Assembly (NCBI GenBank): GCA_964036295.1
Contig: OZ038467.1
Span: forward strand, 20,529,670-20,593,669
DNA length: 64,000 nt
Origin: Plumapathes pennacea
Lineage: Eukaryota > Cnidaria > Anthozoa > Antipatharia > Myriopathidae
Direction of reading: 5' to 3'
The translations under genes were made by a program, and so were the position numbers. Below the pieces are notes generated by a model, which was not told where the DNA came from, made no database searches, and saw nothing but the letters and a program-made list of their open reading frames with translations. This document shows, one piece after another, positions 29,579-64,000 of the stretch (position 1 is its first letter; each line of letters starts with the position of its first letter).

Positions 29579-30373
29579 TATAGGCCTTGCCATAGTTGAC
29601 TGTAAAGTCCTGACTTTGATCAGTGTTGGGTCAGAAAATAAGATCGGCAGTTTCTATAGTGTCGGCTACACCTACTTCTGACCCTCTGTTAGCTGTTGTT
29701 TGGGGGAACTCTCCGGGAGTGATGTTGTGTCTTATTAAACTGCCTGTGCTCCGCAAGATACTATTTGGGAACGCTATATTAACGGAGCAAATTTCCCATG
29801 CAACCATAAATATATTTATAGTAAAGAGAACTTGTTTTTACTGAACTGATTAAAACTGTCAGTTCTCACTACATTACTCATACATTTCTTTTGAAGTCTC
29901 TGGGAGAATTTGTATTTTGAGCTTGGGAGTGAAAGTGTTTAAAACTTCGCAGTCCTCCAAATCGCTAATTCGTCTCCTGCTAAAAGAGACGTCGTCATCA
30001 GTTTCTTGTTTCAAATAATATCACAAAATAGTTAGCCCTCTGTTTTAAACATTTGCCACCCGACCGATTTAACAAAAACTCATTATTGTCTCTGTTGCGT
30101 AAATCTTCGACCCTTGTTGACCTCGCTTACTGCACAGACAGCAGTGTCCACAAGTAGTTCTGGTTAAGTCTGTTATCTGTATACAGTTGCAATCAGCTTC
30201 ACACGTGGTTTTCATTCAGCCAAGCGGTTAACTGACCGACATTTTTATACAAAAATTTTAATTTTAAGCACGTTTATTTGGCAAGCCGAGTGTCCCATTT
30301 GTGTGTCGGATCTATGGCAGAGTTAGAGCGCCGGTAGTAGTTTTGGCGTGGTTTATAATATAACTACAGCTGG
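29579..30373. repeat. Array end, collinear with 4290-4850
   Basis: It contains a partial MITE (about 29790-29940), the GTTGACCTCGCTTACTGC block and the GAGCGCCGGTAGTAG/TGGCGTGG block. It ends at the target site of the Mutator-like element. Nothing else is recognised. Confidence 0.7.
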
Positions 30374-30382
30374 CCGACTTGT

Positions 30383-32441
30383 GGCTATGTTTTAAACCAG
30401 GAACCGGGAACCCGGGAACGGGGAACCGGGAACGGGGAACCGACTCTGGAAAGGGGAACGCAAAAATTGGGAATTTAATCAGAACAAAACCAAATTACTG
30501 GATTTTTGAAGATTTTTTCTCGGTTTTCGCCTGATAAAGATAATTTGTCTTATTTATCCACTAGTTACAGTTGTTAATGGGTAAAATGGTTTACAAACCC
30601 GCCACCACACGAAAAGAGAATATCTAGTGGCCACCGTCATTGTTGCCAGCTGGCCAATCAGGTTAGACTTTCTATTTTCTAATAGTCAACTACCGCGTTC
30701 ATGATCAAACAAACTACTGGTGTCGGATTTGTAAGCGGGCTTCCGAAATCTAAAATAAATATGTTGACAACAGAGATGTGTAATTACATCCAGCTGGGAC
30801 TCTTTAGTGTTACCACCCAAATACATTTTTGCAGTAAAGTCTCTAATCAGATGAAGAATACACTCTTTTGGATAGTAATATGCAAAAGAATGTTACATAT
30901 AACTTGATACTGTAATGCGCGAGCATTAGGTGCTAGCAAGTATTGAGTTGAGTTCGTTAATCGAATGTAATGCGCGAGCGTTAGGCGTTCACGTGTGTAA
31001 GTTTAGTCCGTTTGTTATCCGTTAAGTGTTAGCATATGTAGTAAAGTCCGTTAAAGTGGCGACTGATAGCGAATCGGTTAGCGTGTGTCTAGTATAAAAG
31101 GGATCACAAGCCGTTGTGGTACGAGTTTGTACGGGAGTTTTTACGAGAATTCCGTATGAGTCATTTTGTATGAGTCGACGTACTGTTGAGAGGTTAATAC
31201 AGTTGGACGTTGTTGAAGCTCTGTTTCCTGTGTTTGTGGACCCTGGGTACGTTACAATACAAAGTCTATCATAATTTAAAATATCACAATTTAAAATATA
31301 TTTTTCGTCATACAATTGACAAAATCGCTCGTTTGATTTGTCTAATTCGATGAGTTTGTTTGCTAAACAATGGCAGCTTATTATCTGGACTGCAAATTTG
31401 ATAAATTTGGGAATGCGGACATTTCTAAAATGCGAATATGAACAATTTTGGCAGAGTGTACCTGTCAACACGTTTGATAATCGGTACATGTTAGTATAAA
31501 CAGCTAATTAAATCAATCTGTTTCCTGTTTTCACTGATAGCTGCGACTCAGAGTTTTGCTTCATTTCAATTCTCTTCTTTTGTCGGGAAAAAAAATGAAA
31601 GGATCTCTTTTCAACCCTCGACATGTTACCCTCGACTTTCGACATAGACCCTCGTACACGCTAAATGGTTTGTTGATAAGATCTCGAGTTAAAAGCTTTG
31701 ACTGTCAAGATGATCAGTTATTTTTTAATGAGTTATACCACTGATGTATATTGCTTTAAAGGTCAATTGTAATCAGCAAGTTTACATAATCTCTCGTTCA
31801 ATAACAAACCGGAACTTTAGTGAATAAATCTATAAACCAAATCAATTAACTAAATCAATAGCATATGCGCAAAATAGTTTCTCGTATTTTGGCCAAACCG
31901 TGCTTTCATTAAAATTGGGCATTAACATTACATTTGGAGGAGGGGTGGGGCACAGTTTTGGTTGGGGCTCAACTTCAAAATGTATACTGTTTCTTTATTG
32001 GGGGGGAGATGGGGGGGGGGGGGGTGTTAACAAAAAGATTCATGGTTACAGATTCCTGGTTCCTGGTTTCCCGTTCCCAGATGCCCGGTTCCGGGTTCTT
32101 AGATTCCCGGTTCCCAGGTTCCCGGTTCCGGGTTCTCAGGTTCCCGGTTCCCAGGTTCCCGGTTCCCCGGTTCCCGGGTTCCGGGTTCTCGGGTTCCCGG
32201 TTCCGGGTTCTCACATTCCCGGTTCCCAGGTTCCCGGTTCCCAGGTTCCCGGTTCTCAGGTTCCCGGTTCCCAGGTTCCCGGTTCCCAGGTTCCCGGTTC
32301 CCAGGTTCCCGGTTCCCAGGTTCCCGGTTCCCAGGTTCCCGGTTCCCGGTTCCCCATTCCCGGTTCCTGGCTTTCAGGTTCCGGTTCCCCGTTCCCGGTT
32401 CTCGGTTCCCGGGTTCCCGCTGCCATGTTTTAAACATAGCC
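30383..32441. mobile_element. Mutator-like element with subterminal minisatellites, 9-bp target duplication
   Basis: The ends are inverted: GGCTATGTTTTAAAC with a short GGAACCGGGAAC array at left; a long GGTTCCCGGTTCCCA array (about 32050-32420) and GTTTTAAACATAGCC at right. Flanks are CCGACTTGT (30374-30382) and CCGACATGT (32442-32450), a 9-bp duplication with one change; copy B carries the uninterrupted site. A 9-bp duplication is typical of Mutator-like elements; hAT or P would give 8 bp. The interior has a poly-G tract near 32010 and no transposase. ORFs with Pro-Gly-Ser-Gln-Val repeats are readings of the minisatellite. Confidence 0.75.
30911..31256 (+). mobile_element. Solo LTR nested in the Mutator-like element
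   Basis: The segment starts TGTAATGCGCGAGC and ends GGGTACGTTACA, giving the TG...CA and inverted TGTAA/TTACA ends of an LTR. It is flanked by ATAC on both sides (30907-30910 and 31257-31260), a 4-bp duplication. A TATA-like TATAAAAGG lies near 31094. A motif TGTAATGCGCGAGC recurs at about 30966. No internal retrotransposon region is present, so it is a solo LTR. The 155-residue minus-strand ORF over it is not considered real. Confidence 0.7.
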
Positions 32442-32450
32442 CCGACATGT

Positions 32451-35415
32451 GAAGAAGGAAGTAAAGGTTTAGCGGAAGTGTAACTGCACAGTTTGCGCTA
32501 CAGAAGCTTTTAACATAGAATTAATTCTAGGTTCTCTCCATCTAATGTCTTGTGTACTTTTTGTTGCATGTAATAGGGAAACGAGCTCTTGATTTGAGTT
32601 TCTACGACTAGTTTACATCAGGCAGTGAGGAGAAGATATTTCTGATCAGCTTTTTAATAGTCGACCTGAAACTTTCCAGTCGAACACAGCACAAGATATT
32701 CGGCTACAGCGAGCAAACAAATAAGTAGCCTTCCCTTCTGATATATCATATACCGCTCTAATAATCCCATATCAATTCTGTCGACCCTTGAGCACCAAAA
32801 TTAAGCAATAGAAACAAGATAAACGGCACGCACTAGATGTTTTGCGGTGCCAGCCTAGCATGTAAACAAATCCGTTGCTGTGAGTATTAAAATTGATTTG
32901 AGAGAAATCATAACTGATTTGCGAAATCGGTATTCTGTGTTATAAACAGAAGCCATGTACTGAATATGTGAAGAATTTTGTTTTTATTTCTTAAAGCCAC
33001 GAACTGCTGAGCAACGATAGCGGTTCGCAAACAGAGTTTTCTCGAACATTTAAGAGTTGACTATAGCGAGAATCATTGTTTACAAACTTTTATTTTGTCA
33101 TTCATAATTTTGCCAACCGTGAAACAAATTGTCAGCGTGATCATCGCTATAAACAGCGACAGCCGGAAATTCTTGAGGTCACGCGATTGATCACGCACTC
33201 TTTGTTATGAATTTGTGAGGATTGAATTCCCTGGTGAGCTGTTTCTTTACTGGTTTCTTCACTGAAATTCGAGGTTAAAACGGTGTGTTTGGAGTTGTGG
33301 CGCAAAACAGAAGGACAGAAGGGAGCTTTCTGTCAAGACTGCTCAAGCGTTTATAATTCCATTGTCTGCTGTTTTACCAAACTAGATTCTGATTGGTTCA
33401 AGGTGACAGTTGAGCGGGCCGGGGAGTCCCCAGGGATTGTTCCTTCGTTGCAAGTACGCCATCTTGTCTGGTGACTTGAGTTGTGGAGTTTCTTGTGGAG
33501 TTTCTCTTCAGCAGAGGTTAGTGAATCTTTATGCTGTTAGAACAGTGGTTAACGGATACAATAGGACACTTCATTTGTTCGAAGATCGGCGCTTTCCTTG
33601 GTGAAATGTGCGCGTTTGAGTTCAGTGATTCATCGGGTGTTGTGTGGTCTGAATTCTGTCTTTGAATATTTGTATTTACTGATTTTAGGTTGTAACACTC
33701 TATTTGAAAGTTTATTTGGGATGTGTTTAAACGTAACTTCACTTCAATTTGCACTCTGATCAAAAGATCGCTCGCTGGAAACGCCTTGCGAACCGGCAGA
33801 CGGTTTCGATTTCTGAATCAAACTGGAAAAGCATGCGACATAAAAAGCGGGCAATTCACTCAAAAGTGACAGAAGAGAGAAAATGTTCGACTTAAAGACA
33901 GCATTGTCCAGTCAGTTTGAGGGCTGGTGTTCTTGGGCCGCTGTATGAAAAATCATATTGTGACATAGATCTATATAAACACGATTCTGTAGCTTTGTGG
34001 AATTACGTGAAAAACACTGTGTAGATGAAAAACGCTTCGAAGCAAATAATTAAAGTTCTTAGCTGCTCAGTCTGAGAGTACAGAGAGAGCGGTAACTGAA
34101 TAGTGAAACTAAAAGAATTCTGTACAAACAAACAAACAAACAAACAAACAAAACAGAAAGAACGTTCTTTAATGCATTAATTCTACCAGCACAATGGGGT
34201 CTTGTTTGGTTATAATATAAAAATAGTAGTCAATAAATACTACTCATGACTTCAATATTTTGCAACAGGCAAATTGACAACAAGCCTCTATGATTTGATA
34301 AATGCAGGCAAAGGGAGAATATTAAGTATTCACTTCAGTTCAATTCAATGTGTTTCCCTGTTGATGTACATCATATAACGTACAATGAATAGCGTAGAAT
34401 TAGATTTTTAAAAAAGTACATTCAATGATTTAGGTGTAAGATCCGTACCCTCAATCAAATGATCAACAATTTCTGGATAGGAGAAGGCCAGCATTTTTGT
34501 CAACACATGGTCTATCTAGCTACAGCATTTAATGAACATCAAAAGATAATTTATAGCTTCACAAATATGACAGCTTTGATTTCTCAAGCACAGTGAACAT
34601 GTATAGAGGTGGCAATAAACATCATGGAATACACTCAACAACAAAGAGATAGGAAACAATATATTTTACATTAACAGCAGTTATTGTCCCCAGCTACATG
34701 CTTTAATCTTGTAACATGGAGACTGTCTTATAGCACAGGTTTCCAAACCGAAACATTTACAATAATCAAATCAAAAGAATGCTTGCCACAAATGCCTCAG
34801 AAACTTCACACAGGAAGCATAAAATAAAATCTTGCTCATGAGCTGCAGAAGAGAGAGAGGAAAATATTTTACATTTAAAACCATATTGCCCAGTCAGCAA
34901 GAGGGATTCTGGAGATATATGACATGCACAAAATAGGCTATTTTATAGATTCCATGGCTTTGTGAATCATGTGAAAAATCACCCTTTGTATAACAGACGA
35001 AAAGGTGCTTTGAGAAAATATGGATTTTTAGTGATCAGTTTCCAAAACAAAATTAAAACTGCACAAACAGGAAGAACATTCTTTGCATTCTTGTCAGCAC
35101 AATAGGGTTTTGTTTGGCTATTTAAAACCACAAAGTCAATAAATGGATCATGTTTATGCCTTTAAGAATTTGTGACAGCCTTGATAAATTGATTTACACC
35201 TACCTCGACACAGCGACACCAATTTACACCATCAACACTCTTTAAACTAGTATATACAGTACTGCTTTTTAGTGATGAATGTTTGAATTGTCAACATGGA
35301 AAGTTTGGATTTTCAAACATTAATATATAAAAGATATTCACTTATAGACAAGATACGGAACAGAGCACACATGAAATTCACTGTAGACAAGATACGGAAC
35401 AGAGCACACAAGTTA
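32451..35415 (+). repeat. Segmental duplication copy C (promoter/5'-exon-like segment)
   Basis: It is collinear with copy A from GAAGAAGGAAGTAAAGG to the CACCATCAACAC tail, and both copies carry the Mutator-like element at the same site. It lacks the 381-871 MITE of copy A. It has an (ACAA)n tract at about 34126-34150 and a doubled GATACGGAACAGAGCACACA motif near 35353-35410. No protein gene is supported. Confidence 0.85.
33392..33516 (+). promoter_or_regulatory. Promoter-like block of copy C
   Basis: It has ATTGG at 33392-33396, GGGGAGTCCCC at 33421-33431 and donor-like CAGAG/GTTAGT at 33516/33517. Spacing is as in copies A and B. It is the kB-bearing copy closest to the receptor gene, about 5.2 kb from its start codon. 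Activity is inferred. Confidence 0.45.
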
Positions 35416-35869
35416 TTCACTGAGACAAGATATCGGGGAGGTATTTGGGATCATGGTAGGTTAACCAGCCCAGCGTCAACTGTACTTGTTCACGTTTAGA
35501 AAATGTACCGATCAAGTTCATGAAATGCACCGTGTCCTTTCAGGTTCAGAACATACACCGGCGTTAGTTCCGCACTTGAAACACGTTGGAACAAGCAACG
35601 GTGCCGAAAGTAAATGTGATGTTTTAGCTAATTAAACGAGTTCAGAAGAGACAACAGACAACTTTAGAACGGGTGCCGCTTTATGTGTGGTTTTGGTGTA
35701 TAGTTCAGCATGTGTGTACATTTAACGAGATTTTATTGAAACGTTTTCAGCGTTTAGTCTGAAATAGGGTATCGATCTTGGACCTTTGGGCTGGAATAGG
35801 GTAGGAGGTTTTGATATTTGGTCTTAAAATAGGATCGAAAACTGCACATTTTGGTCTGAAATACTGTAG
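35416..35869. other. Unassigned spacer with degenerate AATAGGGT repeats
   Basis: From about 35755 to 35870 a loose ~35-bp motif recurs (CTGAAATAGGGTAT, CTGGAATAGGGTAGG, TTAAAATAGGATCG, CTGAAATACTGTAGG). Nothing else is recognised. Confidence 0.4.
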
Positions 35870-36535
35870 GAACAAGATACAGAATAGAGCGCACGAGATA
35901 TTTACTCTAGCGAGCAAACAAGTACAACCTTCACTTCTGATACTGAATATTAGCGAGCTGACAGTTCGTGTGCCGCCTGTTGACATAAAACAATAGTTCT
36001 GTAGTGCTAGCCTGTGAAAAAATCTGCAACTGTAATCCTTGTTTTGAAATATTTGTGAGTTGAAAATCAAAACTCATTTACAAACTTTGTATTCTGCGTG
36101 ACAACAGAAGCCGTGTAACGAATGTGTGAAGAATTTTGTCTTAGATACATCCCAAGCTGTGTAACGATGGCGATTTGTATAAAAACAGAGTTGGCTAAAA
36201 GCCACAACCGGAAGTTGTTCAAATCACGCGATTTTTATGAGGGTTGAATTTCCTGTGAGCTGTTTTTTTCACTGGTACAAATTCAAGAGAATGTTTTGAG
36301 TTTTGTCGCAAAACACAGGACAGAGAAAAGCTAAGGTTTCTGTTAAGAATTTTCAGCGACAAAAGTGCCGACACAAGTCCATCAATCTTCGAGTTTGTCG
36401 CCCCATTTTAAACTCGACCCTGATTGGTTAGTTTTAAAAGGCGCAGCTCGAACTCACCTGCACGACCATTTTGTGTGGTGGCTTTAGACTGATCGGATGT
36501 GACTTTCTTGTGGACTTGTTGCTTTGCCAGCAGAG
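35870..36535 (+). promoter_or_regulatory. Putative promoter and 5'UTR exon of the receptor gene (copy D)
   Basis: This is the most diverged copy of the A/B/C segment (for example GTGTGAAGAATTTTGTC at about 36124 and TTCACTGGTACAAATTCAAG), placed directly upstream of the receptor gene. It keeps the inverted CCAAT box (36423-36427) and the donor-like CAGCAGAG/GTTAG (36535/36536) but lacks the GGGGAGTCCCC palindrome. The first coding exon is preceded by an acceptor at 38636 with 12 bases of leader, so a non-coding upstream exon is required, and 36535 is the natural candidate donor. Transcription start is not determined. Confidence 0.5.
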
Positions 36536-37382
36536 GTTAGTAAAATCTTTACAGTGTAAGAAACAAATGTTCATTGAAACAACAGGACACCTTACTAGAC
36601 TCGGTTCGAAAGATCGGCGCTTTAATAAGTTAATGAAATCTGCACGTGCGTTTTAGTTCAGTCGTCGGGTGTTTCGTTTATTCTGTTTCTATTTACTGAT
36701 AAACTAAAGTTTACTTTAGTACGAGACTGGCAAACTGTGTTTCAGATGGTCGTCGTGTCTCTGAGCGCGCCCTGAATAAGTTATCGTAAGATAATGTCCG
36801 CTGAAATGCGTCATTCTTGACCGTACTACAGGGTGCATACGGAAGAGAAATATTGTGTTGAATTGATAACACTCTGGATCGAGTTAGCGAGAGAATTGAA
36901 AGGGCAAAGACTTCAGTTACACTTACTAATGTAGTGCAGCCCAGTTGGATTGAGTGCAGGAGTCCTTGAGATCCTTCATTTCTAAACGATTGATCGCAGG
37001 CATCTGAAACCGAAGATATGAAAGCTGATTGTGCAATCACACGAAAATTCGGCCTTGTACATATGAACAGATCGATGCTTTTCTGTGTGTGAATTAATTG
37101 TATGGTCCTTATTTGATCATTCCGAGGGAGCAAAGAGGTGTGGCAGTAGAGTAATAATTATAAATTAACTTCCACAATTAAACTGAATGGGTTCTTTCAT
37201 TGAACAAACAGGATTTTCATTCCTTGCATTCTTACTTGTCTGGTGATTACACATGAACTGTAGTTTAAAGTCATTGCAAAAGAATCAGCCAGTAAATGTG
37301 ATGATGAAGGAAGTAATCTAATGCATATCCTGGCATGATAAGTGCAGACAAAGAGATAATATTTGTTGAACTTGAAAGTTGG

Positions 37383-37582
37383 GATTGAACCATTAAGTTC
37401 AAAATGCAGATTCTCCCAACCTTTTAAGAGGAAATTATGAGTGGTGTAGTGAGAATTGATAGTTTAACCAGCTATCATCTGAGCAAGGCATCAAAAGCCA
37501 GGTCCTCCTTACTCTATGATATATTTGTGGTGCTGAAACTGAAGGAGAAAATTGAACTTGATCACTCTTGGGAGTGAAAGGG
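37383..37582. mobile_element. piggyBac-type MITE in receptor intron 1
   Basis: The right end CTTGGGAGTGAAAGGG is followed by TTAA (37583-37586). It lies in the 37165-37675 block that is duplicated at 6471-6985. The minus-strand ORFs at 36711-37865 are not supported. Confidence 0.7.
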
Positions 37583-38648
37583 TTAATATACAAGTTATAC
37601 AGATTTCATACACCCAGGAAAATTGATTTGGTTCACCATGATGTGCAGATGGCATCAGCTGCCAGTGTAAGGGCCTCTTGTAAACAACGTTTTCACCAGA
37701 ATATTTGCTAGAGACTTCATTCATTGAGTTTTGCAGGTCTGAGCGCTGTTTTTTGTTTAGCCGAGGTACCAGTGATTCATAAACAGCACTAGTAAACAAA
37801 TTATTAAAACCGGCTGATGTAGTACTTTGTTTATTGTCAAAGCATTTGCATATGTTAGGTCGCAAGTGACTGCTGAACTAAATTTGATTGGTTCTGGGTG
37901 CATCCTTTCCTCTCAAATGATTTGACATAGATTAGTAAGGGCCCCTCTAGATACCAGCCGTCGAGCTGAATGGGCTACCCTGCTAAAATAAAGTTGTTCA
38001 TTCATTTGGCAAGGTGCCTCTCCAATGCTCAACATCGAATAATACAAATGACACGTAACATTAGCAGTAATAATATATTATTGAATAACCAACAATATCA
38101 GATGACAGTTGAACAACATATAGTATTGTAGATAAGACTTATCTAGTGTTGAGCCCAGGGAGGGGAGGGGGGATGAACAGTTGACCTCTGATGATGTTTG
38201 GATGATTGATCCGCAGACGTAATGAATGCATAAGGGATTAAATACAGATAGAGCGGTTTGGATGACAATGGAAAGTAAATTGTGCAATTGCTTTGGTTTT
38301 GCATTGCTATGTTTTTGTCCAAATAAGTTTGTCAGCATTCTCGGCTGATCAGAAACAAAAACAAAATTTGATTGTGATGTAGTATGGGAAAAACTACTCC
38401 ACATGACTGGTGTTCTAGAATATTAAATATAGTGGTAGCATTTTTTTGATCAAAATGTCTTCCAAGTTTTGTGTAACTGAAAATGTCTGTAAAAGATCAA
38501 GACATAAATTTGATCGAATCCTTTGAAAGGTTTTCAGTAGCTGAGAAGGGGTGGCAAAAATTAATCATGTTTTTTCCAGTTGTTGTGGTTTCACTAAAAA
38601 CCTTGAATTAATGATTCTTCATTTTTATGTTTTCAGGTCTAAACAAGA

Positions 38649-41600
38649 ATGGCAGAGGGTGGTCAGCCAAAGCACCGACACCTAAAAGATGAATGTGCAG
38701 ATGGAGATGAAACAAGTAAGTATATGTTGTATTTTTCTTCACTAACTCACACAGAAGAGATGACAAGAATAGATGGTTTGCCACATTCAGTGTGCAGTTT
38801 GTATTCAATGCTGTTATTGACCAAGAGGAAATAGGAATTATTGAATATCCTGCACCCCCAGCGCTGATACTGTATACAAGATTGTGATGTAACCTTTAAT
38901 TTATTAACCACACTCTTTTGATTGAGAGACATCTAGATGACTTATTGTCCAGCATACATTTTGTTCCCAAATAATAAAAATCACATGCCTTCTTTGGGAA
39001 AGAAACAAAAAAAAAAAAAAAGCTGACTGGCTTACATTGAGTAGCACTCAAAAAAGACATCCTTTTTACTGTAGGCTTTTTGTTCAGTAAATCACTACAT
39101 TGCTGCCATCTTTAAATTAAAAGCTGTGAACTTATAGATCCAAATTTCTAGGCTTCGATTTGCCAAGACAGTGTTTGACCACACCATCACGAAATAATTA
39201 ATTACACCTCATTATGGTTGACGTGATTTAAAACTTCCTTTGATTAGCTAGTTTTTGTAATGACTTGGTTGGCTATTGAAAAAGTCTATGTTGCGCATGC
39301 CAGCAAAAGGTTTAAAACACTGGGGAGCGAGTACCCACAGGGGAGGGGCGGGGGAAAGTTCTCCCTCTGTTAGGAGGTTCTACCCAAAAGGGGTGAGCAA
39401 ATATTCCACAGGAACATCAATTTTTAATATTAGTGCGGTCACCTGTTTGTTTGGTACTGTTTTACACTACAGTAATCAAGTCTAAGTAATGAAACTCATC
39501 AAATTTAAAATGCTGTCAAAAGTGGATAACAGAAAAAATTCAGTTTTACACTAACAGCAAAAACTAATTGATTTGGAAATGTATGCCTGCAAACATTAGC
39601 AGCCCATGGCAAATCTGTACCTGAATCATTTGGTTATCAAGTTTCCAACCAATAAAAAATGGTGATGATTGACATAAATCTGTTTTAGGGGTAGGGACTA
39701 ACATCTGATGCTCTGTGTGAACAAAGCTGAGAAAATTAAGCTTCTTAATTTAGGAGTTGTAGCCAAATAAAATGCATCATACTCAAAGCTTTGTTTTTAC
39801 AGGTGCACCATCCAACAACGAACTTTTGGATCTGTCACTTGAACTTGTTCACAGCTGGAAGCGTGTTGGGATGCGACTTGGCTTGAACAAAAACGTCCTG
39901 GAGGACATCGATGCCAATAATGTTCAATATCCAAGTCCCATTAAGAAGGCTCTCACGATGCTAATGGAGTGGCACAATAGAATGCCAGATTCCTTCTCTT
40001 ACATGGCTCTCTCGAAAGCTTTGATACGAGAAGGACTATTTGAGCTGGAACGTAAATACTGTGGCTGTCAAGAGGTAAAAGTACTGGATCTTATTAGATA
40101 TTTCTATTAATTTACACAGGGTAGATTTAGTCATGAAAGATCTTTTTCTAATTGATGATGTGGTCATGTGGTCAAGCTTTTTGTTACTTGAAGTTGCAAA
40201 GCTTCAATTCTTCCACTGACTGATCAATTAATCATTTGCTATTTATGAGCAGCCCTTTACAGCACATGGCCAAAACCTCCTTGAGGGAAGAACTCTCTTA
40301 CATGTATAAGTGACTTGACCTGACCAAAGTACCAAAAAAGTATTTCTTCTGTTACTGTCAATAAAGCATTTCAAGTGGCCAGAAACACCTTTGAGCCTTA
40401 CCATTTGAGTTTTTTACCTGATGGAAAGCAACCATACCACACCCGCTTCTTTGCAGAAACACTGAATGGACAAAAAATGTGCTAATCGACATCGTAATTG
40501 TGAAAAAGAAGACAGGTTGCTTGTTTTCCAAGAACTGAAAGTAATAAAGTTTACTTGATAATTGTTTAGTCAAGAAAACTGTAGTATTTGAAATTGGTTG
40601 TGGCTCAGAACTGGACCCCATAGATTTTATTTTTATATTACCCATATAGTGACACATTTCATAAAGCAACCATCTAAGCCTGAACTGTTCAAGGGGCATT
40701 TATGGCTTACCTGATAGTACAGTGTTTATATTTGTATAATAGAAATACCAATATTCTCAGAGTCAGATTACAGTGCCTTCGGTTACATACATTTCAGCCT
40801 TGCTTCACTTGTTTGCTTTCTGGTGAAACGTTCTGTATCATATCCAGGGTTTGAAATTAATGGTAGTTAACACTGTCCTGGAAAACCAAAAGCATTGGTG
40901 GCACAACCAAATACATGTAGTGTACTGTACAATGGTTGCAGTGTCTTGGGCAGGCAATGGCTTTGAGAAAACTGATGCAATTTTGTGTTGCCATGATGCT
41001 AATTTTTAATGCAATGATGTGTAGGAACTAAATTAAGGAGTCAGATTGGATGGGAGCAAGTGAACACAAAAGCTAAATTCAAACCCTGTGTATATATCAA
41101 TCTATCAAATAAATAATCAACAGTTTATTAAGACATCATGTAACTGTGTCTTCTTTTAGAGTGCTGCTGGGTATCATGGTAGACAGGAAAAGGATTATGG
41201 TATGGTAAATTACTGACTGGTTTCTTAAACACTCCTTTCTTTCCCCTTCTTTCATCTCATTGCTATACCCAACTTTTATCTCTTCTCTAAACATCATATC
41301 TAAAATTGTGTGATGATAGTATGCAGTAGAATATTTTATTATATTTTTGGACTGTAGTGAACATTATCTTTGTTCTGAGTCTCAGCTAACTCAAACACAC
41401 ATGCAAGTCAAAGCTCCCTGGCCTTCATCTGCATATAAGGAAGGGTGGGGTGTACATGGAGATGGAAGCCCTCTTTTGGTTTCTGTGTATGATGGTGTCC
41501 AAAATAGCGACATCATGATATTAATTGCCACCTTGAAAAACATCTTGAAATTTTGTGTATCATGCAAGAACATCAAAAAATGATAAGTAAAATTAACATA

Positions 41601-44600
41601 ATAGTTCTTTTGTGTTTTTGCATTTCTAGTGACTTGCATTATTGTTGTTTATGTTTATGTTTATTGTTGTTTATTTTGATGTCCCCGGCTACCTGTGGAT
41701 ATTCTTGAATATCTTCTGTTTTATTGCAACCAGCTGTACAATGCAAAGTAAAAATTAGTTTCACTGGTGTTGAATTGTCATATCTTATTAAATGTTGCTA
41801 TTTTTTTATATATTAAGCTCCTGCTGCTAGCCAGGGGAAATCACAGGCACGTGTAGGCAGGACGACACATCAGAATTTATCAGGTACACATAAAATGCTT
41901 GAATTTTAATTGTTTCACAGTGTTTAATCCTTGGTGGGCTGCATACAGTAGGTAATAATGTTTGCCTGTGTTATATTGAGTTGAGGGCAGAGGAGACGAC
42001 TGACATTTCAGGCTAGGTGCAACCAATCCCCAACCAAATTTCTGGGTATAGTACCAACCCTGGACCAACAGCATGTTTGTATATGTAACAGCACTACATG
42101 CTGACCAATATTAGAAAATATTTAGATGAGAATAATGCAGAGGACTGTCACTCGGAATTGTTCTCATCCAATTACTTCCAAATTGGACAGCATGTAGTCC
42201 TATTATGTGTTGATTATATTGTATAGACATTTAACATATTTTTCAAACTTTCCAATTAACCCCAATTGGGCAGTTTAAAAAATTAAGACATAATTCCGTA
42301 GTTAAGCAGACACAAAGCATGACCTAATATTATTAACCACACTGTGTACACGGAGCCCAAACAAAACAAGAGATAAAGAGAAACTATAAACATGTCCACT
42401 CAAGTGTAAGACCACATTGACTCTCTCAGCCTATAGTTATAATTATATCTTATATACTGCTTGACCATACACATGTGAACATGCACTATTTCCCACCTCA
42501 CATGTTTGCAATAACCATGCACTCTTTCACATTAATTCCATACTTTCACTTGGGAATTTGAGAAGGTCTAATATTGTCTTTTTTGTTATGCTTCGCTGCA
42601 CTTAACCAAAGATGAATAAGGCATTTTTCGTGTTGTTCCAGTTAACTTTTTTGTGTGAAATGTCAGCAGAGCCAGGGTTTTCACTGCATTGTTCTTGTTA
42701 TACAGGTCCCTCTGCCAATTTTTTGGGGCCATCACAGCTGATTGAAGGTTCATCCGAAAGTGGTGCATGCAATTATGGTTATGTACCAACTCATCTATCT
42801 GGTAATTATTGAAAATTTGGTTTGTAATAAGTCTAACTGCATACAGTGTAAAACATACTTAGTTACATGTTACATATTAAATGGATTATTTTAATATCTT
42901 CAGCTGGAAGCAGCAAGATGCACCATAATTGAGAAGTGCTATCTTGAATTTCCAAGTGAAAGGATGAACATGAAAGAGTGCATGGTTATTGTAAACGAGT
43001 AACATACATGAGAAAATGTGCAAGTGTAGTGACAGACATGTATACATTAAGATGTAAATAAGACTAAGAGGGCTGTTGTAAATCTCATAAAAACTTCTAC
43101 AGACATGGTTATTTTTTTGTCTTTTGTTTTGTTTGACTTCAGTGTGCAAGAGGGTCTGGTTAGAAATATGGTAAACTTTGTGTCCACAACACAATCTTGG
43201 TCAATCTTGTGTGTTAGTTTTTTGCTTTTGAGAAGTACTATTGACGGTATATACCCCCTCTCTCGCCCTGGTGCTACTGTTTTATACTTCCCTCTGGCCC
43301 AGGGGCTGTTGTGGGGCTACATTAAAGTCAGGTCTTTATTTACATTGTTTTTTGTTACACACAGGTCCCCCTTTCAATTTGCCAGCAACGTCACAGTTAC
43401 ATGAAGGTTTTCCCTATGCTCAGCCATATGACCATGGGCGAAGCCATTTATCAGGTAAATGAATAAAAACATTTTTACTATCTGCGAGCAATCAATTGTT
43501 ATGCTTTGTCCTTAAGTGGATGAGGAAATTACCACTAAATTTGATTGGACCAATCCTAAAGCACAGCAAACAAAACCAAGAAAGTATTTTTTACAGTCAC
43601 CTAAAAACAGCTCTCAATAGAACAATAATATTATTTTAACTATTTTCTGAAGTACTCTTGCATTTGATTGCATTTTAATTCCATTCCAATGTTACACAGG
43701 TTTAGCAACATCACAGTTTTATGAGAGATTTTCCCACCCTGGCCAATATAATTATCAAGGACCAACTCATTTGTTTGGTAAGTAATTGAAAATTTTAAGT
43801 TTGTGATTTGAAATGCATGTGGTGCGCACCCTCAATAAAAGTTTGAGCTCAGGAGTGAAAGGGTTATATAGCAATGCTACAATATTATACTTTTTTCCAC
43901 AATTATACTTTTTTTTTCAAGAAGCCGTGACTCTTTATTCAGACCCTAGTATTGTGTATATTTGCTTAATAATAATGTAAATGATCTTTATTTCATCAGG
44001 GTTAAACTCCATCAGTTACAAACTGTTCTCCAAGCAAGGCCCTGCCCTTGCTTGGTACTAAAGTATGATTAGCACGTTTATGCATAAACAAAACAATTAC
44101 CTAGTATGTATCTATGTATCAGGTCATTCTTGCTTACATCAAATAAGAATATCTTCTTTTTACACAGGTACTGCTCACAATTTGCAACAGCAGTGGCATG
44201 GAGGTTTGTCTTATACTAGAGAACACCACAGTAAAATGCCATATGGTTTGACAGGTAAATAATTTGAAGATAATATTGCTGTTTTTGTACATGTAGATGT
44301 TCATGCAAAATAATAGAGTACATTTTGTCATTACAAGACACGTTTTGCTTTTTAATTAAAGCACTTTATACATATCATCGGGTATATTAATGAAGATTTT
44401 GTTATTTGATAAACAATGGAGTACCGTTATTTCGGCCACTACTGGGACATAAAAATCTGGCTGTATTAACAGGGTTTTCATGATAAGAAAATGACTGGCC
44501 ATTTGTTTCGCAGGACAGAAAAGTGGCCGTAATAGCAGGGTGGCTGTAATAAGGGGTGGCCGAAATGCAGGGATCCACTGTATTGTTTCTATGCCAGGAA

Positions 44601-47600
44601 ATATTGTTGATCACTTCTTTTTTTTTTTCTTTTTCTTTTTCTTTTTTTTTTAATATTGTTTCATTGCAGGATTGTCCCAAAGTTCATTGACAACACCACT
44701 TTCGAAGGACTTTCCATGTATCTACTCTACTTCACAGCCAGTATTTTCAGGTAGGGGTGTTCTCATTTAATTTTAAACTACAAAGTATGTAACCATGACA
44801 ACAAAGTATTGGATTCAAAGTTCCTTTCCAGAATAGATTTTATCATTGATTTCCATTTCATGCACAGAGCCCAATCTGGCCACCTCAGTAACACTACCTT
44901 CAGAACAGGTTACTTTCCCTGCTGCTGCACAGTCAGCAAGATTGTCAGGTAAAGAAATCTCACAAAGTGTTCTTGGATTTTGGTGGGAGTCTTTGAAGTA
45001 ATTAACTCTGGTTTTTTTGTTGTTTTTCTCTCTTGTTTTCCTGTGCAATGCTCAATGCAGCCACTTCAATGACTGCACCACTTTCAGGCCAGTATTTTAA
45101 TTCTTTTGAACAGCAATCTGAAGTTTTAGGTATGATATAAAACAGCAACAGCAGGGCGAGAGAGGGGGCATATACCGTCAATAGTACTTCTCAAAAGCCA
45201 AAAACTAACACACAAGATTGACCAAGATTGTGTTGTGGACATAACGTTTACCATATTTCTAACCAGACCCTCTTGTACACTGAAGTAAAAAAAAAAAAAA
45301 AAAAACAAGAGACAAAAAAATGACCATGTCTGTACAAGTGTTTATGAGATTTATGACAGCCTTATTAGTCTTACTCACATCCTAATGTATACATGTCTGT
45401 CACTATACTTGCACATTTCTCATGTATGTTACTGTGTAGGGGAGGGGCTTTGGTGGTTGGAAAGGGTTGGGGGGGGGGGGGGGAGGTAGAGAATTTCAGT
45501 AGGGTACAGCATACAGATTATTGATGTTGCCATCAAACGAAACCATGTTTTCAATCGGGAAGCAGTGGAAATGATCTTTCACCAGATGCACTGGTTCCAA
45601 CAAGTCCAAAATGCTTGTATATTGATTTGAACTGATAAGACATTGCTGAAACATCTAAACCCACCTTCCTTCATTATACAAACATCAGCCTTGTCTGAAG
45701 TTGTGAAAATTTATTTTCCTTCTTTGGGACCAAAGAAAAAATGCTATTTCGTTTGGATTCATTGGCAGTAATTTCAAGCAAATTAATGTAACCAAGTCGA
45801 GATGACTTAGAAACAGAGGAATGGTAAACAATGAACTACACCAACTCAAAGCCAGACTCAAAATCGTTTAATCACTAAAAACGCACCACTATCACAGAGT
45901 GATTCAAGACCAAAACAAACGATAACTTATATGTGACTTGACCTGGTCACATTAAAATATCTGTAGGAGTCCCGAACAGTGATCATCTTCTACTTTCAAC
46001 ACATGGTCAGCTGTACATAGTTTGGTGGGGAGGAAATGGTAGTTGATCTCTTGCTTAGATTCAAGCTGGCAGACCAACAATTCTTCTAACACTGCATGCT
46101 CATCCATTTTTTTTTTCAGTGTAGTTTGGGAGAATTGGATTATTGATATTGGGGCTTAAGATAAATAAGGACATTTCATATAAGCTGTGCAGTCTTGATT
46201 AAGCTTTTACTTATTTTTAGATCTGCTGTTTTTACAGGTCACCAGGATGCCTCCACAAGCCAGCCAACCACATCTCCAGTGGACCCACTTGTGAAGAAGG
46301 CTGCAGGTAAGTGAATACTGTGTTGTGCCTTCCTTGTGGACAATTATCTGAGGTATGCCTCCTAAAATAAGGACTGGCCATAATTTAGTATTATTTTATC
46401 TGTCCTGAGAACAGAATCTCCTCTAAAGTTCCCTACTGGAAACATATGAACTTGCCTTACTCCGATAAGCATGTGAGAGCCCAAAATATGTAACCAAAGC
46501 TGTGAAAGCCTTGTTTCAAAGAACACCATGGGCACAAAATCAGTCTGCAGTTTACCAAACTGCACATGCAGAACAGTCCAGACCCGTTTGACTCATCAAA
46601 GTGTTGGGAAGAGTGGCTCGTGCATGCTCAACAAAGAAAGATTAGTTGATTGGCAAGCGCTCTGACGTTTACTCTTATCAGAGGTTCTGCTAGCAGGGTA
46701 TAATTTATTGGGGGAGACAGAAAATTAAGTATTGAATTACTGTAATGTCCAAAACAAGGCAGGATTAGATTGATGTCATGATCGAAATGAAGGGAGAATG
46801 ACTATAATGTTGGACACACAGGATCTCAGTATCACCCTCCTTCCACAAACTTAAAGATAACCTGCATCATAAAGTTGCAGTTTGTCTTCGTGTTATATTT
46901 TAAACTTGAACTTTTTCACTCCCAGCATTGATCAACTTCAATTTCCTAATACCATTCAGTTTTGAGAACTTGGCTTTTCAAAGCTGATTGAGCTACAAAT
47001 TCTCACTATATCATTCAAACTTTTTTTCTGTAATGCTTAGGAGAATTAGTAATTGTGATCTGGGGTGTGAAAGTATAAGGTTCCACTTGTATATTACATC
47101 CCTGGGGGGAGGGATTTTTGTAGATACCCTTTTTAGGTGGGTAATTTTTTTAGCGTCTGGAAGATCTAGAGGGTAAAATTGAAGACTATGTACTTGGATT
47201 ATCAGTAAAGGTCAAAAGCAATCGATATTAAGTATGGGCTTCAGAAGACTAGCGTCTTCGGCGCTCGAAAAATCTTACACCTCGCATACCAAGAATTTGG
47301 CTTAAAGGGGAAAAAAAGGCTGGCTAGCTACACCCCTGGTAGCAAAAGAAAGGCAGTCAAATGAGTTGCTTTGAAGAATTTGAGATTTTGTTGGTAAAAT
47401 TACCGGCTTTTATGAAGTTTACAGTATTTGGATCAAACATTGCATCAGTTATGTATTCCGTTTGTGTTTCCCGCTAAAGGCAAAATTTAATATCCCGTAC
47501 GAGTCAAACGTCACAATTTTTACCGAATTTTTTGGACCTCCCCCCCCCCCCCCCAGGGATATAATAAACGGTCCCTAAACAGCAGAAGAGTGTGTTAGTT

Positions 47601-49432
47601 ATACGGTTTCATTCTGTGACGCAGTTTTTTTTATACGTATAGATGTCCTAAAGAAGAGATATAAAAAACGAGAAGCATCTATTAATCCACTCCCATGGTA
47701 CGAAGACTGGCAGTTGTCTCTGGACAAAATCTACACCAAACTACAGATGGTCAGCAAAGAGACCGAGCGAGAGTGCAAACAAACCGAAGATTACTTCGAC
47801 ATGCATGAAATATTTAAAACGCACACAGAAGAAAGCAATATAAAACCAAGAGTTGTTCTTGTTGAGGGAAAACCTGGAATTGGCAAGACGACGTTTTCCC
47901 AGAAATTGACCTACGACTGGTCCAGGGACAAGATCAAGATCAGCGAGTCATTCCCAGAGTTTAAAATCTTCTTGAAGCTAAAGTGCAGGGACTTATCACG
48001 TGAAGCGCGTTCCACAGCTGTTGACGACATCTTGAAGAAAGCCATCGCTGATTTGCTTCCAATTGACCAGCCAGAGCTTAGAGGTGCTCTGATCAGATAC
48101 ATTAAAGACGAAAATTGCAAAGTCTTGATGCTCCTTGACGGCTTGGATGAACTGCCTCAAGACATCGATCTGTATCCACTGATCAAAGGAGACATTTTCT
48201 CTAATCTTCATCTTCTGCTTACAAGTCGGGACACCCCCGAGCTACGGAAACACTGCGACAGTCTTTTCCAGATCATTGGATTCACTTTAGAAGACGCGAA
48301 GTCCTACATTCGTCAGTTCTTTGTAAAGAACCCAGAAAATGGCCAAGTTCTCCTGGAGCGGATTGAAGCAGAAAGCCAAGATGGCGTACTACTTCGAGAA
48401 CTGACACGCATCCCGCTGAACACGACTCTTCTCTGCGCTGTTTGGAAGGAAACAAATGGCCGACTGCCTTCGCACACAACTCAACTGTACCAAAAGATTA
48501 TTTGGTGTATTCTGAAAATCTACTACAAGAAGAAAGCCCAAGATCCCCCCGTTGACATACTGGCGAAACATGAAGAAGACCTTGCCGCTCTCGGTCGTTT
48601 GGCTCTGCAAGGGCTTCAAAATGACCAACTTCACTTCAGTGAAGACGACCTTCACGCCGAAGACCGCGCGACGACAATTCTGGATTCTGGATTCCTCTCG
48701 AAAGCAACAAGTGATTCAATTTTAAATCCTCGCTCAACGTATCAATTCCTTCATAAGACATTGCAGGAATTCTTTGCTGCGTTAAATTTGCAGAAGCAGT
48801 CTTTGTCAGGTAACGAAGCTTATCTAGAATATTTTAGTGAGGCTACAGGTTATGGGTTTTATCGTGTTTTTAAGTTCAAACAGGTAGCGATATTCCTTGC
48901 TGGTCTGATGAGTCAAAACTCCGAGGCGGGAGAAATTTGTGTTCGTCTAGTTCGCTCTCTCACACAGAACATTTCAAATACTGATGATCGTTCTAGTTTT
49001 CTTTACATATGCGATGTAATCCGTGAAAACGTCAGCGTCGACTTAGAAGAAGATTTACATTCAGCTGTCGTCAGCAGTTTCACTTGGGAGAGACTGGTAC
49101 TGAACCACGAGCGGCTTGATGAGAATTCAGTTGAATATCGACTTGTGTGTCAAGTATTGGAGAGAAACAGACCACTGGAAAGGTTACATTTGGGCTACAA
49201 CGAGATAAAAGATATAAGTAAGCTAAGTAAATGTATTGTGAGAAATTCAACACTGAAGTCATTATATTTGCATCATAACCCGCTCCTTCATACAGGTGTT
49301 CCTGCACTCGCTAAAAATCTCCAACACAACAAAACCCTAGAACTGTTAGTGTTGGACAAGAAATGGAGCAAGGAACCAGCTATGCTGGAGTTAAAACGAC
49401 ACAACACACACCTGGATATTGACTATTTTTAA
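38649..49432 (+). CDS. NOD-like receptor: Death - linker - NACHT - LRR
   Basis: This is an intracellular sensor of the NLR family. The NACHT ATPase drives oligomerisation, the Death domain recruits adaptors, and the LRR tail senses or autoinhibits. My model has 13 coding exons: 38649-38715, 39803-40074, 41160-41199, 41818-41883, 42706-42801, 43365-43454, 43700-43777, 44168-44254, 44670-44750, 44868-44948, 45061-45129, 46238-46306 and 47643-49432. All have GT/AG borders and consistent phases, giving an open frame of 961 residues. Death domain is at about 24-108. NACHT: Walker A GKPGIGKTT at 441-449, Walker B LDGLDEL around 530-536, sensor TSRD near 559-562, FLHKTLQEFFAAL near 734-746, then 2-3 LRRs at about 877-940. 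The start is the first ATG after the 38636 acceptor. Similar architectures are abundant in corals. Linker exon boundaries need transcript support. Confidence 0.85.
39803..40074 (+). other. Exon 2: Death domain
   Basis: The exon (phase 1 in, phase 0 out) encodes a Death-fold domain of about 85 residues. It shows LVHSWKRVGMRLGL (helix 2 with the conserved Trp), the LEDID turn, KALTMLMEWHNRM (helix 5 with the conserved Trp) and LSKALIREGLFELERKYC (helix 6). In the receptor this is the likely signalling module. A CARD or DED is less likely, given the W...LGL and MLMEW pattern. Confidence 0.85.
43000..43286 (+). repeat. Left arm of ~295-bp intronic inverted repeat
   Basis: This lies in intron 5 of the receptor gene. 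It is highly similar to the reverse complement of 45135-45432, sharing GTGACAGACATGTATACATTA, GAGGGTCTGGTTAGAAATAT, and CTCTCTCGCCCTG in matching order. The ORFs over both arms are readings of this repeat. Confidence 0.85.
44414..44580. mobile_element. pogo/Tigger-type MITE in receptor intron 8
   Basis: It is about 167 bp with imperfect inverted ends: CAATGGAGTACCGTTATTTC at left and the complement of GAAATGCAGGGATCCACTG at right. Internal repeats of GTGGCCGTAATAGC/GTGGCTGTAATAAG are present. The CAGTGGATCC end followed by TA on the right is typical of pogo/Tigger elements; the left TA is degenerate. Confidence 0.6.
45135..45432 (-). repeat. Right arm of ~295-bp intronic inverted repeat
   Basis: This lies in intron 11, beginning five bases after the exon 11 donor. 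It is the inverted partner of 43000-43286, differing mainly by a poly-A expansion near 45288-45304. Together the arms enclose exons 6-11. Confidence 0.85.
46916..47075. mobile_element. piggyBac-type MITE, degenerate, receptor intron 12
   Basis: The left part TTTTTCACTCCCAGCATTGATC and the right part GGGGTGTGAAAG match the family ends loosely. Internal motifs such as GATCAACTTCAATTTCC and AATTCTCACTA match other copies. Confidence 0.5.
47078..47575. mobile_element. Possible short transposon with G/C-run inverted ends
   Basis: The sequence TACATCCCTGGGGGGAGGGA (about 47092) is inverted at about 47538-47563 (CTCC, a long C run, then AGGGATATAATAAA). The pair encloses ~480 bp of non-coding sequence in intron 12. 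Target duplications are not clear, so the class is unassigned. Confidence 0.35.
47643..49432 (+). other. Exon 13: NACHT, helical domains and LRR tail
   Basis: This single 1790-bp exon encodes residues 366-961. After the YEDWQLSLDKIYTKL lead-in come the P-loop, a Walker B with paired acidic residues (D531, D534, E535), sensor-1 TSRD, the conserved Pro of RIPLNTTLLC near residue 623, and the QEFFAAL segment of the helical domain. The LRR region is very short (LERLHLGYNEI, LKSLYLHHNPL, LELLVLDKKW). Keeping the ATPase in one intronless exon is common among cnidarian NLRs. Confidence 0.85.
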
Positions 49433-59458: not shown

Positions 59459-59955
59459 ATCCGCTCCACTATGACAGCTTAGGAGTTGAAAGTGAACACA
59501 CTGTTATTAGAATATACTTATTCAACTGAAGTTGAAAGTGAACACTGCTCTTAGAACTGTGTGCTCATTGAGAGCTTTTATTTCAGTAGTTACACTTTAA
59601 ATTTCATTTGACAGTTAAGACGTTGAAAGTGAATACTACTACTAGAATGTACTCATTGAGAGCTTTCATTTGAATGGTCACACCTTTAGGTTTCATTTGA
59701 CAGTGAAGGCGTTGAAAGTGAACACTGCTATTAGAATGTACTCATTGAGAGCTTTCATTTGAGTGGTAACACCTTTAGGTTTCATTCGACAGTTCAGGAG
59801 TTGGAAGTGAACACTGCTATTAGAATGTACTCATTGAGAACTTTCATTTGAATGGTCACACCTTTAGGTTTCATTCGACAGTCCAGGAGTTGGAATTGAA
59901 CACTGCTATTAGAATGTACTTCTTGGGAGCTTTCCTTTCGAGTGGTTAGTCACAC
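59459..59955. repeat. ~90-bp tandem repeat before a splice acceptor
   Basis: Five to six copies of a unit built on GTTGAAAGTGAACACTGC, TAGAATGTACTCATTGAGAG and CACCTTTAGGTTTCATT occur here. The last copy ends about 20 bp before the acceptor of the 59976 exon. Unit length varies in the first copies. Confidence 0.75.
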
Positions 59956-63277: not shown

Positions 63278-63747
63278 TGCTCAAATGAATGTTCTATTGG
63301 AGTACATTGTAATAACAGTGTTCATGCTCAAATGAATGTTCTATACGAGTACATTGTAATAACAGTGTTCATGCTCAAATGAATGTTCTATACGAGTACA
63401 TTGTAATAACAGTGTTCATGCTCAAATGAATGTTCTATACGAGTACATTGTAATAACAGTGTTCATGCTCAAATGAATGTTCTATACGAGTACATTGTAA
63501 TAACAGTGTTCATGCTCAAATGAATGTTCTATTGGAGTACATTGCAATAACAGTGTTCATGCTCGAATGAATGTTCTATACGAGTACATTGTAATAACAG
63601 TGTTCATGCTCAAATGAATGTTCTATACGAGTACATTGTAATAACAGTGTTCATGCTCAAATGAATGTTCTATTGGAGTACATTGTAATAACAGTGTTCA
63701 TGCTCAAATGAATGTTCTATTGGAGTACATTGTAATAACAGTGTTCA
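63278..63747. repeat. 47-bp tandem repeat, 10 copies
   Basis: The unit begins TGCTCAAATGAATGTTCTAT and is exactly 47 bp; ten copies span 470 bp with almost no change except a variable site reading TTGGAG or TACGAG. It lies in the intron before the last visible patatin exon. Confidence 0.95.
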
Positions 63748-64000
63748 TGCTCGTGATCAGTTTATTCTGTGCATCTTTTACTCGTTACTTTAGGTACAGC
63801 CAGTCTTTTCAGTGAAAGGATTTTAATAAAGCTTCCTGATTTTTGAACAGTTTTCTCTTCATTAACTAAGCGTTTTCGCTTTAAGATGTCGGCCATCACC
63901 ACGCAAAGATCGTGTTCAAGAGTTGGACCCAGGGCGACCAACCTCCAGAGGTTTAAAAGACAGCATCAGCCGTAAGGTGCGAGAAATGTCCCTTGCTACT

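Follow-up and report, generated by a model that had tools for sequence, protein, structure and literature searches.

The locus and its gene model

The stretch of DNA analysed here (hereafter the window; 64 kb, C6:20529670-20593669) comes from the antipatharian Plumapathes pennacea, the genome of which comprises 290 Mb in 24 contigs, and all paralogs discussed below were sought within this same genome. On the plus strand of the window lies a 13-exon gene that reads to its stop codon as 961 amino acids without an internal stop, and its product is an NLR (NACHT-domain receptor) with an N-terminal Death domain. Between the Death and NACHT exons stands an array of nine short exons, here called cassettes, which all begin and end in phase 1. 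We propose that this array is probably a genomic expansion joint, the cassette number of which would set the Death-NACHT tether.

The assignment to the NLR class follows from the Death domain (Pfam PF00531; 26.3 bits, Pfam cut-off 22.6), which supplies the N-terminal death fold, the NACHT domain (PF05729; 75.4 bits, cut-off 26.7), which supplies the ATPase, and a winged helix after the NACHT (PF17779; 25.6 bits, cut-off 23.1). C-terminal matches to LRR_4 and LRR_8 fall below the Pfam cut-off and the tail is short. The Death exon has a single, weak match among PDB sequences (E 0.014). The exons, with lengths in nucleotides (nt), are as follows.

38649..38715, plus strand: E1, first coding exon (ATG), ending in phase 1; recognisable in paralogs C6a, C6b, C6d, C6e and C6f
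39803..40074, plus strand: E2, Death exon (Pfam PF00531)
41160..41199, plus strand: E3, 40-nt adaptor from phase 0 to phase 1 (gene model); 40/40 bases the same in C6f
41818..41883, plus strand: E4, phase 1-1 cassette of 66 nt with weak splice sites; also in C6a, C6e and C6f
42706..42801, plus strand: E5, type I cassette of 96 nt ending THLSG (scan, DNA homology)
43365..43454, plus strand: E6, type I cassette of 90 nt ending SHLSG (scan, DNA homology); identical in C6f
43700..43777, plus strand: E7, type I cassette of 78 nt ending THLFG (scan, DNA homology)
44168..44254, plus strand: E8, divergent type I cassette of 87 nt ending YGLTG (scan, DNA similarity to E6)
44670..44750, plus strand: E9, type II cassette of 81 nt (scan, DNA homology)
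44868..44948, plus strand: E10, type II cassette of 81 nt (scan, DNA homology)
45061..45129, plus strand: E11, type II cassette of 69 nt with a weak acceptor (DNA homology)
46238..46306, plus strand: E12, type III cassette of 69 nt (scan); also upstream of other NACHT exons
47643..49432, plus strand: E13, with NACHT, NOD2-type winged helix, short LRR-like tail and stop (Pfam)

The nine cassettes as exons

The initial annotation had proposed nine symmetric mini-exons at 41160..46306. All nine (E4-E12) were found where it had put them, with lengths of 66-96 nt, every one divisible by 3, phase 1-1 and AG/GT borders; the end of the range is correct, while its start is that of the adaptor E3, so the symmetric array proper spans 41818-46306. 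As in the titin PEVK type of architecture, 9/9 are consecutive exons of one phase class with lengths divisible by 3.

Support for these exons was sought by an unbiased scan that required only an open phase-1 exon and fair splice sites, using generic metazoan splice-site matrices without training on this organism. Over the 7.6 kb that separate the Death exon from the NACHT exon, the scan returned nine phase-1 candidates, namely E5-E10, E12 and two nested within E6 and E10, so that seven of the nine cassettes dominate its output; E4 and E11 are recovered only at relaxed thresholds. The same stretch and strand yielded two candidates in phase 0 and six in phase 2, and its minus strand 0, 2 and 1 by phase. 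In the rest of the window the plus strand holds 18 phase-1 candidates in 52.5 kb (2.6 expected for a length of 7.6 kb), and the whole minus strand two (0.2 expected for that length). The joined cassettes remain open for about 240 codons in the frame used, for which the chance at intron composition is about 8e-7, and the other two frames contain 9 and 11 stops. The GC content is 46% in the cassettes vs 36% in the introns.

That the E4-E12 segments are not exons, or that the gene is dead, is highly improbable. The splice sites of E4 and E11 are weak and the splicing of E4-E12 is predicted from DNA, both of which would suit such a reading; it is opposed by the open frame, the splice sites, the conservation, the homology that runs across splice sites and the intact NACHT exon.

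Cassette families and their duplicate origin

Similarity at the DNA level runs through the splice sites into the introns for E5-E7 (z 12.4), E5-E6 (z 12.2), E6-E8 (z 9.0) and E6-E7 (z 8.7), while E5-E8 and E7-E8 (z 3.6-3.8) are close to the level expected from shared splice signals alone. In the second family the values are 6.4 for E9-E10, 6.0 for E9-E11 and 3.4 for E10-E11. The peptides agree: E5, E6 and E7 are related at z 4.2-5.7, and the peptides of E9-E11 as a group were equalled in 3/1000 shuffles. Peptide similarity is weaker for E4 and E8 (E8 z 2.3), the relation of E4 to other cassettes is weak at best in both peptide and DNA tests, and the same tests revealed no relationship of E12 to the other cassettes of the array. 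Within-gene evidence of tandem duplication thus extends to 7/9 exons (E5-E8 and E9-E11), excluding E4 and E12.

At the DNA level, therefore, E5-E8 are duplicates and E9-E11 are a second duplicate group. The related peptides ending THLSG, SHLSG, THLFG and YGLTG that had been noticed beforehand are those of E5, E6, E7 and E8, respectively, and the accompanying suggestion of exon duplication is borne out by the homology across splice sites and by extra E12-type copies in paralogs. At E values of 10 or less, a 23-residue query with the E12-type exon matched at least 14 places, each of them on C6 or C1. The nearest NACHT relatives also lie on C6 and C1. E12-type exons occur two to three times in C6c, C6g and C6f, and in C6c part of the post-E12 intron is repeated as well.

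An extra 48-nt exon of C6a and C6e, X48, is a conserved phase-1 candidate with strong splice sites (local positions 7672-7719 in C6a, 7592-7639 in C6e) and was not found in the block of the window. It was rejected as a relative of E5-E11, its similarity to them never exceeding z 1.7; the z of 5.3 with E12 may reflect shared splice signals only, and X48 stays a candidate exon.

Cassette number among paralogs

A search of the genome with the NACHT exon returned 75 places, and NACHT places number at least 100 genome-wide. Eight full-length places, including the window, lie on C6, where the others have 60-85% amino acid identity to the window; the other nearest relatives are one locus on C2 (51-52% identity) and seven on C1 (about 50%). 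NACHT exons from other subfamilies are densely clustered at C3 4.49-4.97 Mb and C11 11.43-11.73 Mb. Upstream DNA was read for 14 paralogs, 20 kb each for the seven on C6 and three on C1, and 10 kb each for C1d, C1e, C2 and C12. A predicted phase-1 exon was counted as a cassette if it was similar to a known one or was shared between paralogs, with the following result.

Window: 9
C6f: 8 (E4, E6-E10 and two E12), plus an E5 with a dead donor
C6a and C6e: 3 each (E4, the 48-nt candidate and E12)
C6g: 3, all E12-type
C6c: 3 (one E12 and two 48-nt exons, called E12-like by eye and from the piece of post-E12 intron behind each)
C1a, C1b, C1c and C1e: 2 each (a 72-111-nt exon and E12)
C6b and C6d: 0

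Isolated candidates, of a kind that the thresholds also admit by chance, were excluded from these counts (C6c 14096-14173 and 16210-16254; C6f 17235-17279; C6g 9658-9747; C1b 15199-15273; C1c 16689-16778; C1e 1536-1592, 5285-5356 and 9399-9491). The candidates of C1d, C2 and C12 were left uncounted, and a Death exon was not seen within 10 kb upstream at these three loci, nor found within 20 kb at C6c and C6g.

The predicted cassette number therefore varies between genes at the DNA level, and the coding sequence from Death to NACHT ranges among these related receptors from 34 nt to 757 nt. The NACHT exon is open in 9/9 read (window, C6a-C6g and C1a). Within this genome the large array is no property of the NLR family as a whole: a query with the whole linker located E5-E10 at the window and C6f only, and E11 at the window only.

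The loci C6b and C6d document an in-frame cassette loss. In their linker exon, 10 nt from the start of E3 run directly into the closing 24 nt of E12; the reading frame continues into an open E13, and the fusion was probably a single event because both genes are identical over this junction stretch. Recombination at E3/E12 was rejected as its origin, both flanks being C6a-like: the last 0.8 kb of intron 2 in C6b is 92% identical to C6a vs 84% to the window, and the intron after E12 is 95% identical to C6a vs 56% to the window. The flanks fit a simple in-frame deletion from a gene of the C6a type.

The initial annotation had further held that any subset of the cassettes can be skipped in frame, so that one receptor could produce many linkers. 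As arithmetic this is true, and in-frame removal has parallels in related genes, namely the C6b/C6d fusion and C6f, which lacks E11 and has a dead E5 donor. The E5 donor of C6f (C6:20706685-20726684) reads AT rather than GT, which should disable the exon, and the frame would be safe if E5 were skipped. Combinatorial skipping within a gene could draw on the phase 1-1 structure of all nine exons, on weak splice signals at E4 and E11 and at the donor of E5, and on the lost donor in C6f; we nevertheless consider it improbable, because six of the nine exons (E6-E10 and E12) score at least 3.1 at both splice sites, the differences seen are between genes and not within one, and skipping, like the hairpin switch considered below, is a prediction from genomic sequence. 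We infer that most cassette variation lies between genes rather than between transcripts.

The copy C6f and probable selection on the linker

The array of C6f lies 150 kb away and is about 3% diverged from that of the window. From the upstream flank to intron 10 the two loci are 93-98% identical, in stretches with gaps between them, and the segment from E2 to E3 is 98% identical. The homology ends in intron 10, and a long homology between C6f and C6g starts after the first E12 of C6f. The NACHT exon of C6f is only 74% (73.7%) identical to that of the window and 85% identical to that of C6g. The boundary at which a recently shared front meets an old NACHT back thus falls within the cassette zone, all introns of which are in phase 1. 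C6f would thus be a mosaic, as its unequal divergence and the end points of homology suggest. A conflict between trees of the Death side and of the NACHT side was also considered, and a conflict of topology was not shown. The split of window and C6f from C6a, C6b, C6d and C6e is present in both trees (support 100/100 and 93/96), and in three clade tests on these trees no clade was rejected (p-AU 0.22-0.32).

Upstream, positions 27945-41169 of the window (upstream flank and Death module) are about 92-98% shared with C6b and C6d and, in pieces, with C6f and C6a. This is a large, recently copied segment that bears the 5' half of these receptors.

The close copy permits a comparison of exons with introns. 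Between window and C6f, E5-E10 differ at 14/513 positions (2.7%) vs 87/1664 (5.2%) in introns 5-9 (p 0.016). In E4-E10 there are nine synonymous and nine non-synonymous changes (synonymous rate dS 0.065, non-synonymous rate dN 0.020; Fisher p 0.02), and no insertion or deletion (indel) interrupts the 958 exon bases of E1-E10, whereas the introns carry 26 over 5342 bases (P 0.009). The results from this one gene pair give modest support to purifying selection on the linker and hence to a coding function. In E1-E3 four changes are synonymous and twelve non-synonymous (dS 0.051, dN 0.040; p 0.75). Unlike the linker, E1-E3 (38649-41199) might possibly be under relaxed or diversifying change, to judge from these few changes.

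The same comparison bears on a neutral ratchet, according to which symmetric exons simply pile up unremoved and the linker has no length-dependent role. The predicted copy number of 0 to 9 among close paralogs with 9/9 open NACHT exons, and the coexistence of 34-nt and 757-nt linkers, are what such a process would leave behind; dN lower than dS in E4-E10, exons free of indels and array exons more conserved than the intervening introns are not, at least in this gene pair, and we regard the ratchet as a real but unlikely alternative.

An inverted repeat around E6-E11

Two of the array introns carry the arms of an inverted repeat.

42998..43286, plus strand: arm 1, in intron 5, ending 78 nt before E6
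45136..45433, minus strand: arm 2, in intron 11, with 6 nt between E11 and the arm

The arms (about 290 nt) show about 89% complementarity, and precisely E6-E11 lie between them. An ungapped search of the 64-kb window for inverted repeats (80 nt or more, arms within 6 kb) returned this pair alone. In the predicted minimum-energy structure of the 3.4-kb segment bounded by the E5 donor and the E12 acceptor, arm 1 has 269 of its 289 bases paired with arm 2, and the arm duplex (-438 kcal/mol) is far stronger than that with 30 random partners from the window (mean -95, best -115). Taken by itself, arm 1 forms a weaker fold than most shuffled versions (195/200 at least as good), so the pairing is between arms. 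The long complementary sequences in flanking introns that are typical of a circular RNA locus with intron pairing are thus present; an Rfam scan of the window found nothing.

A DNA search, which is liable to pass over words of very high frequency, and a 38-base pattern in which as many as three mismatches were allowed located the repeat sequence at three places in the genome, namely both arms and arm 1 of C6f. An ordinary mobile element was considered and rejected on this count; because it was found at three genome places only, the repeat is probably not a common mobile element. C6f has kept arm 1, and arm 2 was not found there. The two arms differ by 11% and arm 1 differs from that of C6f by 5%, from which arm 2 is probably older than the copy. 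The direction of copying would have been from a window-like gene to C6f.

The loop holds six cassettes, i.e., 486 nt in frame, and the array without them would retain 231 nt (77 codons). The hairpin-forming repeat suggests that the six cassettes could be spliced out together. In its full form this would be a two-state splicing switch: a hairpin of about 290 bp would enclose E6-E11 in its loop, and the products would be either an E5-E12 join (77 instead of 239 codons) or a back-splice from E11 to E6 releasing a 486-nt circle, at a ratio set by helicase or editing activity on the stem. Passages of PMC8391333 describe intron pairing as favouring circularisation and exon skipping as one route to circles. 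The position and complementarity of the arms, their uniqueness in the window by ungapped search, the strength of the predicted pairing, the frame-safe loss of 486 nt and the restricted distribution of the repeat all point towards such a switch. The repeat may, however, be an inverted duplication of neutral character, splicing frequently outpaces pairing over long distances, and the arrangement is not conserved in C6f, the single available relative; the switch is accordingly a tentative and somewhat doubtful proposition. Still less likely is its further consequence, in which the locus-specific repeat drops E6-E11 as a block and frees the circle, so that a choice at the RNA level, responsive to double-stranded-RNA-binding, helicase or editing activity, would give one receptor two assembly geometries. 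If true, the six phase-1 exons of the circle would form an endless open frame.

Comparison with known systems

Arrays of symmetric exons are already known from titin PEVK, schistosome micro-exon genes (MEGs) and brown-algal ROCO LRR exons. The PEVK segment of titin likewise contains many short, tandem-duplicated exons, and this flexible segment varies in length by duplication and splicing; it has 113 annotated human exons, is PEVK-rich and acts as a mechanical spring, whereas the present array has nine (PMC6469411). By the composition threshold given there (a ratio of at least 0.54 per exon), 0/9 exons qualify (0.14-0.45). The array is therefore not a PEVK array, and by analogy it may work like one. 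In schistosome MEGs, too, short symmetric exons follow one another and can diversify proteins through alternative splicing, yet these measure 6-36 bp, make up about 80% of the coding region and almost always encode secreted or exposed proteins (PMC5825161), as opposed to exons of 66-96 bp amounting to 25% of the coding region of a receptor of intracellular type. The ROCO LRR exons of brown algae are also tandem, equal-phase exons in candidate immune receptors, shaped by duplication and alternative splicing (PMC11378527). Those exons are 72 bp, in phase 2, and each encodes an LRR of the sensing part; those described here are in phase 1, of varied length, and encode a linker.

Dscam-type clusters also consist of tandem duplicated exons, exactly one of which per cluster is used in a mutually exclusive manner. 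All nine cassettes can join in frame here, which fits additive use.

The closest functional parallel is exon 3 of human NLRP3, which, as in the present gene, gives the linker between death-fold domain and NACHT its own exon, with relatives that have and lack it (PMC13226650). The NLRP3 linker has 40 residues, includes a polybasic motif and comes from a single exon, compared with nine exons, 239 codons and almost no net charge here, and the authors of that paper report no natural skipping of exon 3 in human cells.

In the open-access literature, supplements aside and as far as its accessible passages extend, no description was found of an expandable array between an NLR signalling domain and NACHT, with paralogs ranging from nine predicted cassettes to zero and a repeat-bracketed block. 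The words "exon" and "linker" have 0 occurrences in the main text of a cnidarian receptor survey (PMC8260672), "exon" has 0 in the available text of PMC12314368, and the passages of PMC10236652 do not describe this array.

Proposed function of the linker

The array encodes 239 codons, at 22-32 codons per cassette, and accounts for 25% of the coding sequence. Its product contains 10% charged residues and 62% Q/N/S/T/G/P/H/Y, and a Pfam search up to E 1 gave no match. Disorder is suggested by the mean on the TOP-IDP scale, which is 0.155 for the linker vs 0.076 for each of the Death and NACHT parts. We infer that the linker is flexible and acts as a tether.

The mechanism proposed for the expansion joint is as follows. 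The symmetric phase-1 cassettes that separate Death from NACHT would be duplicated, copied and deleted, and since every junction keeps the frame, gain or loss of a cassette would cost little. Each cassette would add 22-32 codons of a low-charge, S/T/Q/P/G/H/Y-rich and probably flexible chain, so that cassette number would set the length and content of the tether from signalling domain to ATPase. On NACHT oligomerisation the tether might then tune the packing or presentation of Death domains, the assembly geometry or the choice of partner, by analogy with the linker of NLRP3 exon 3. Deletion of that 40-residue linker between PYD and NACHT, encoded by one exon, converts decamers mainly to monomers and dimers, and several functional NLRs lack a linker of this type (PMC13226650). 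In NLRP3, then, this linker determines the choice between a cage and small species.

Several points weigh against the expansion joint, in addition to the weak sites at E4 and E11 and the predicted status of the splicing. Charge-hydropathy places the linker slightly on the folded side (mean hydropathy 0.437, boundary 0.418) and so gives disorder no support by itself. Between window and C6f, the exons E1-E10 taken together differ at 34/958 positions (3.5%) vs 147/5273 (2.8%) in the introns, among which introns 1-4 are unusually similar (0.5-3.2% different), and for E4-E10 alone the absence of indels has a P of 0.06. A gain of the array in this lineage and its loss in others are both compatible with the sequences. 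According to PMC13226650, IL-1beta release from THP-1 cells was not significantly altered when exon 3 was skipped, and the Nlrp3 of chicken and of zebrafish is functional although it lacks this exon. The NLRP3 results imply that a linker can matter for assembly and yet be dispensable for output.

Other repeats in the window

Minisatellite arrays with a similar 15-nt unit lie at 1-316 and 32049-32418, and several long open frames on the latter are repeat artefacts. Two further tandem repeats occur at 59530-59946 (89-nt unit, 4.7 copies) and 63278-63752 (47-nt unit, 10.1 copies, 97% matches).

Implications

Automatic gene models would tend to miss or scramble this part of the receptor. With linkers built from countable, frame-safe units, the related receptors in this one genome constitute a natural length series for the role of the linker in NLR assembly, and they show by what means the domain spacing of a receptor family can be altered while the frame stays safe.

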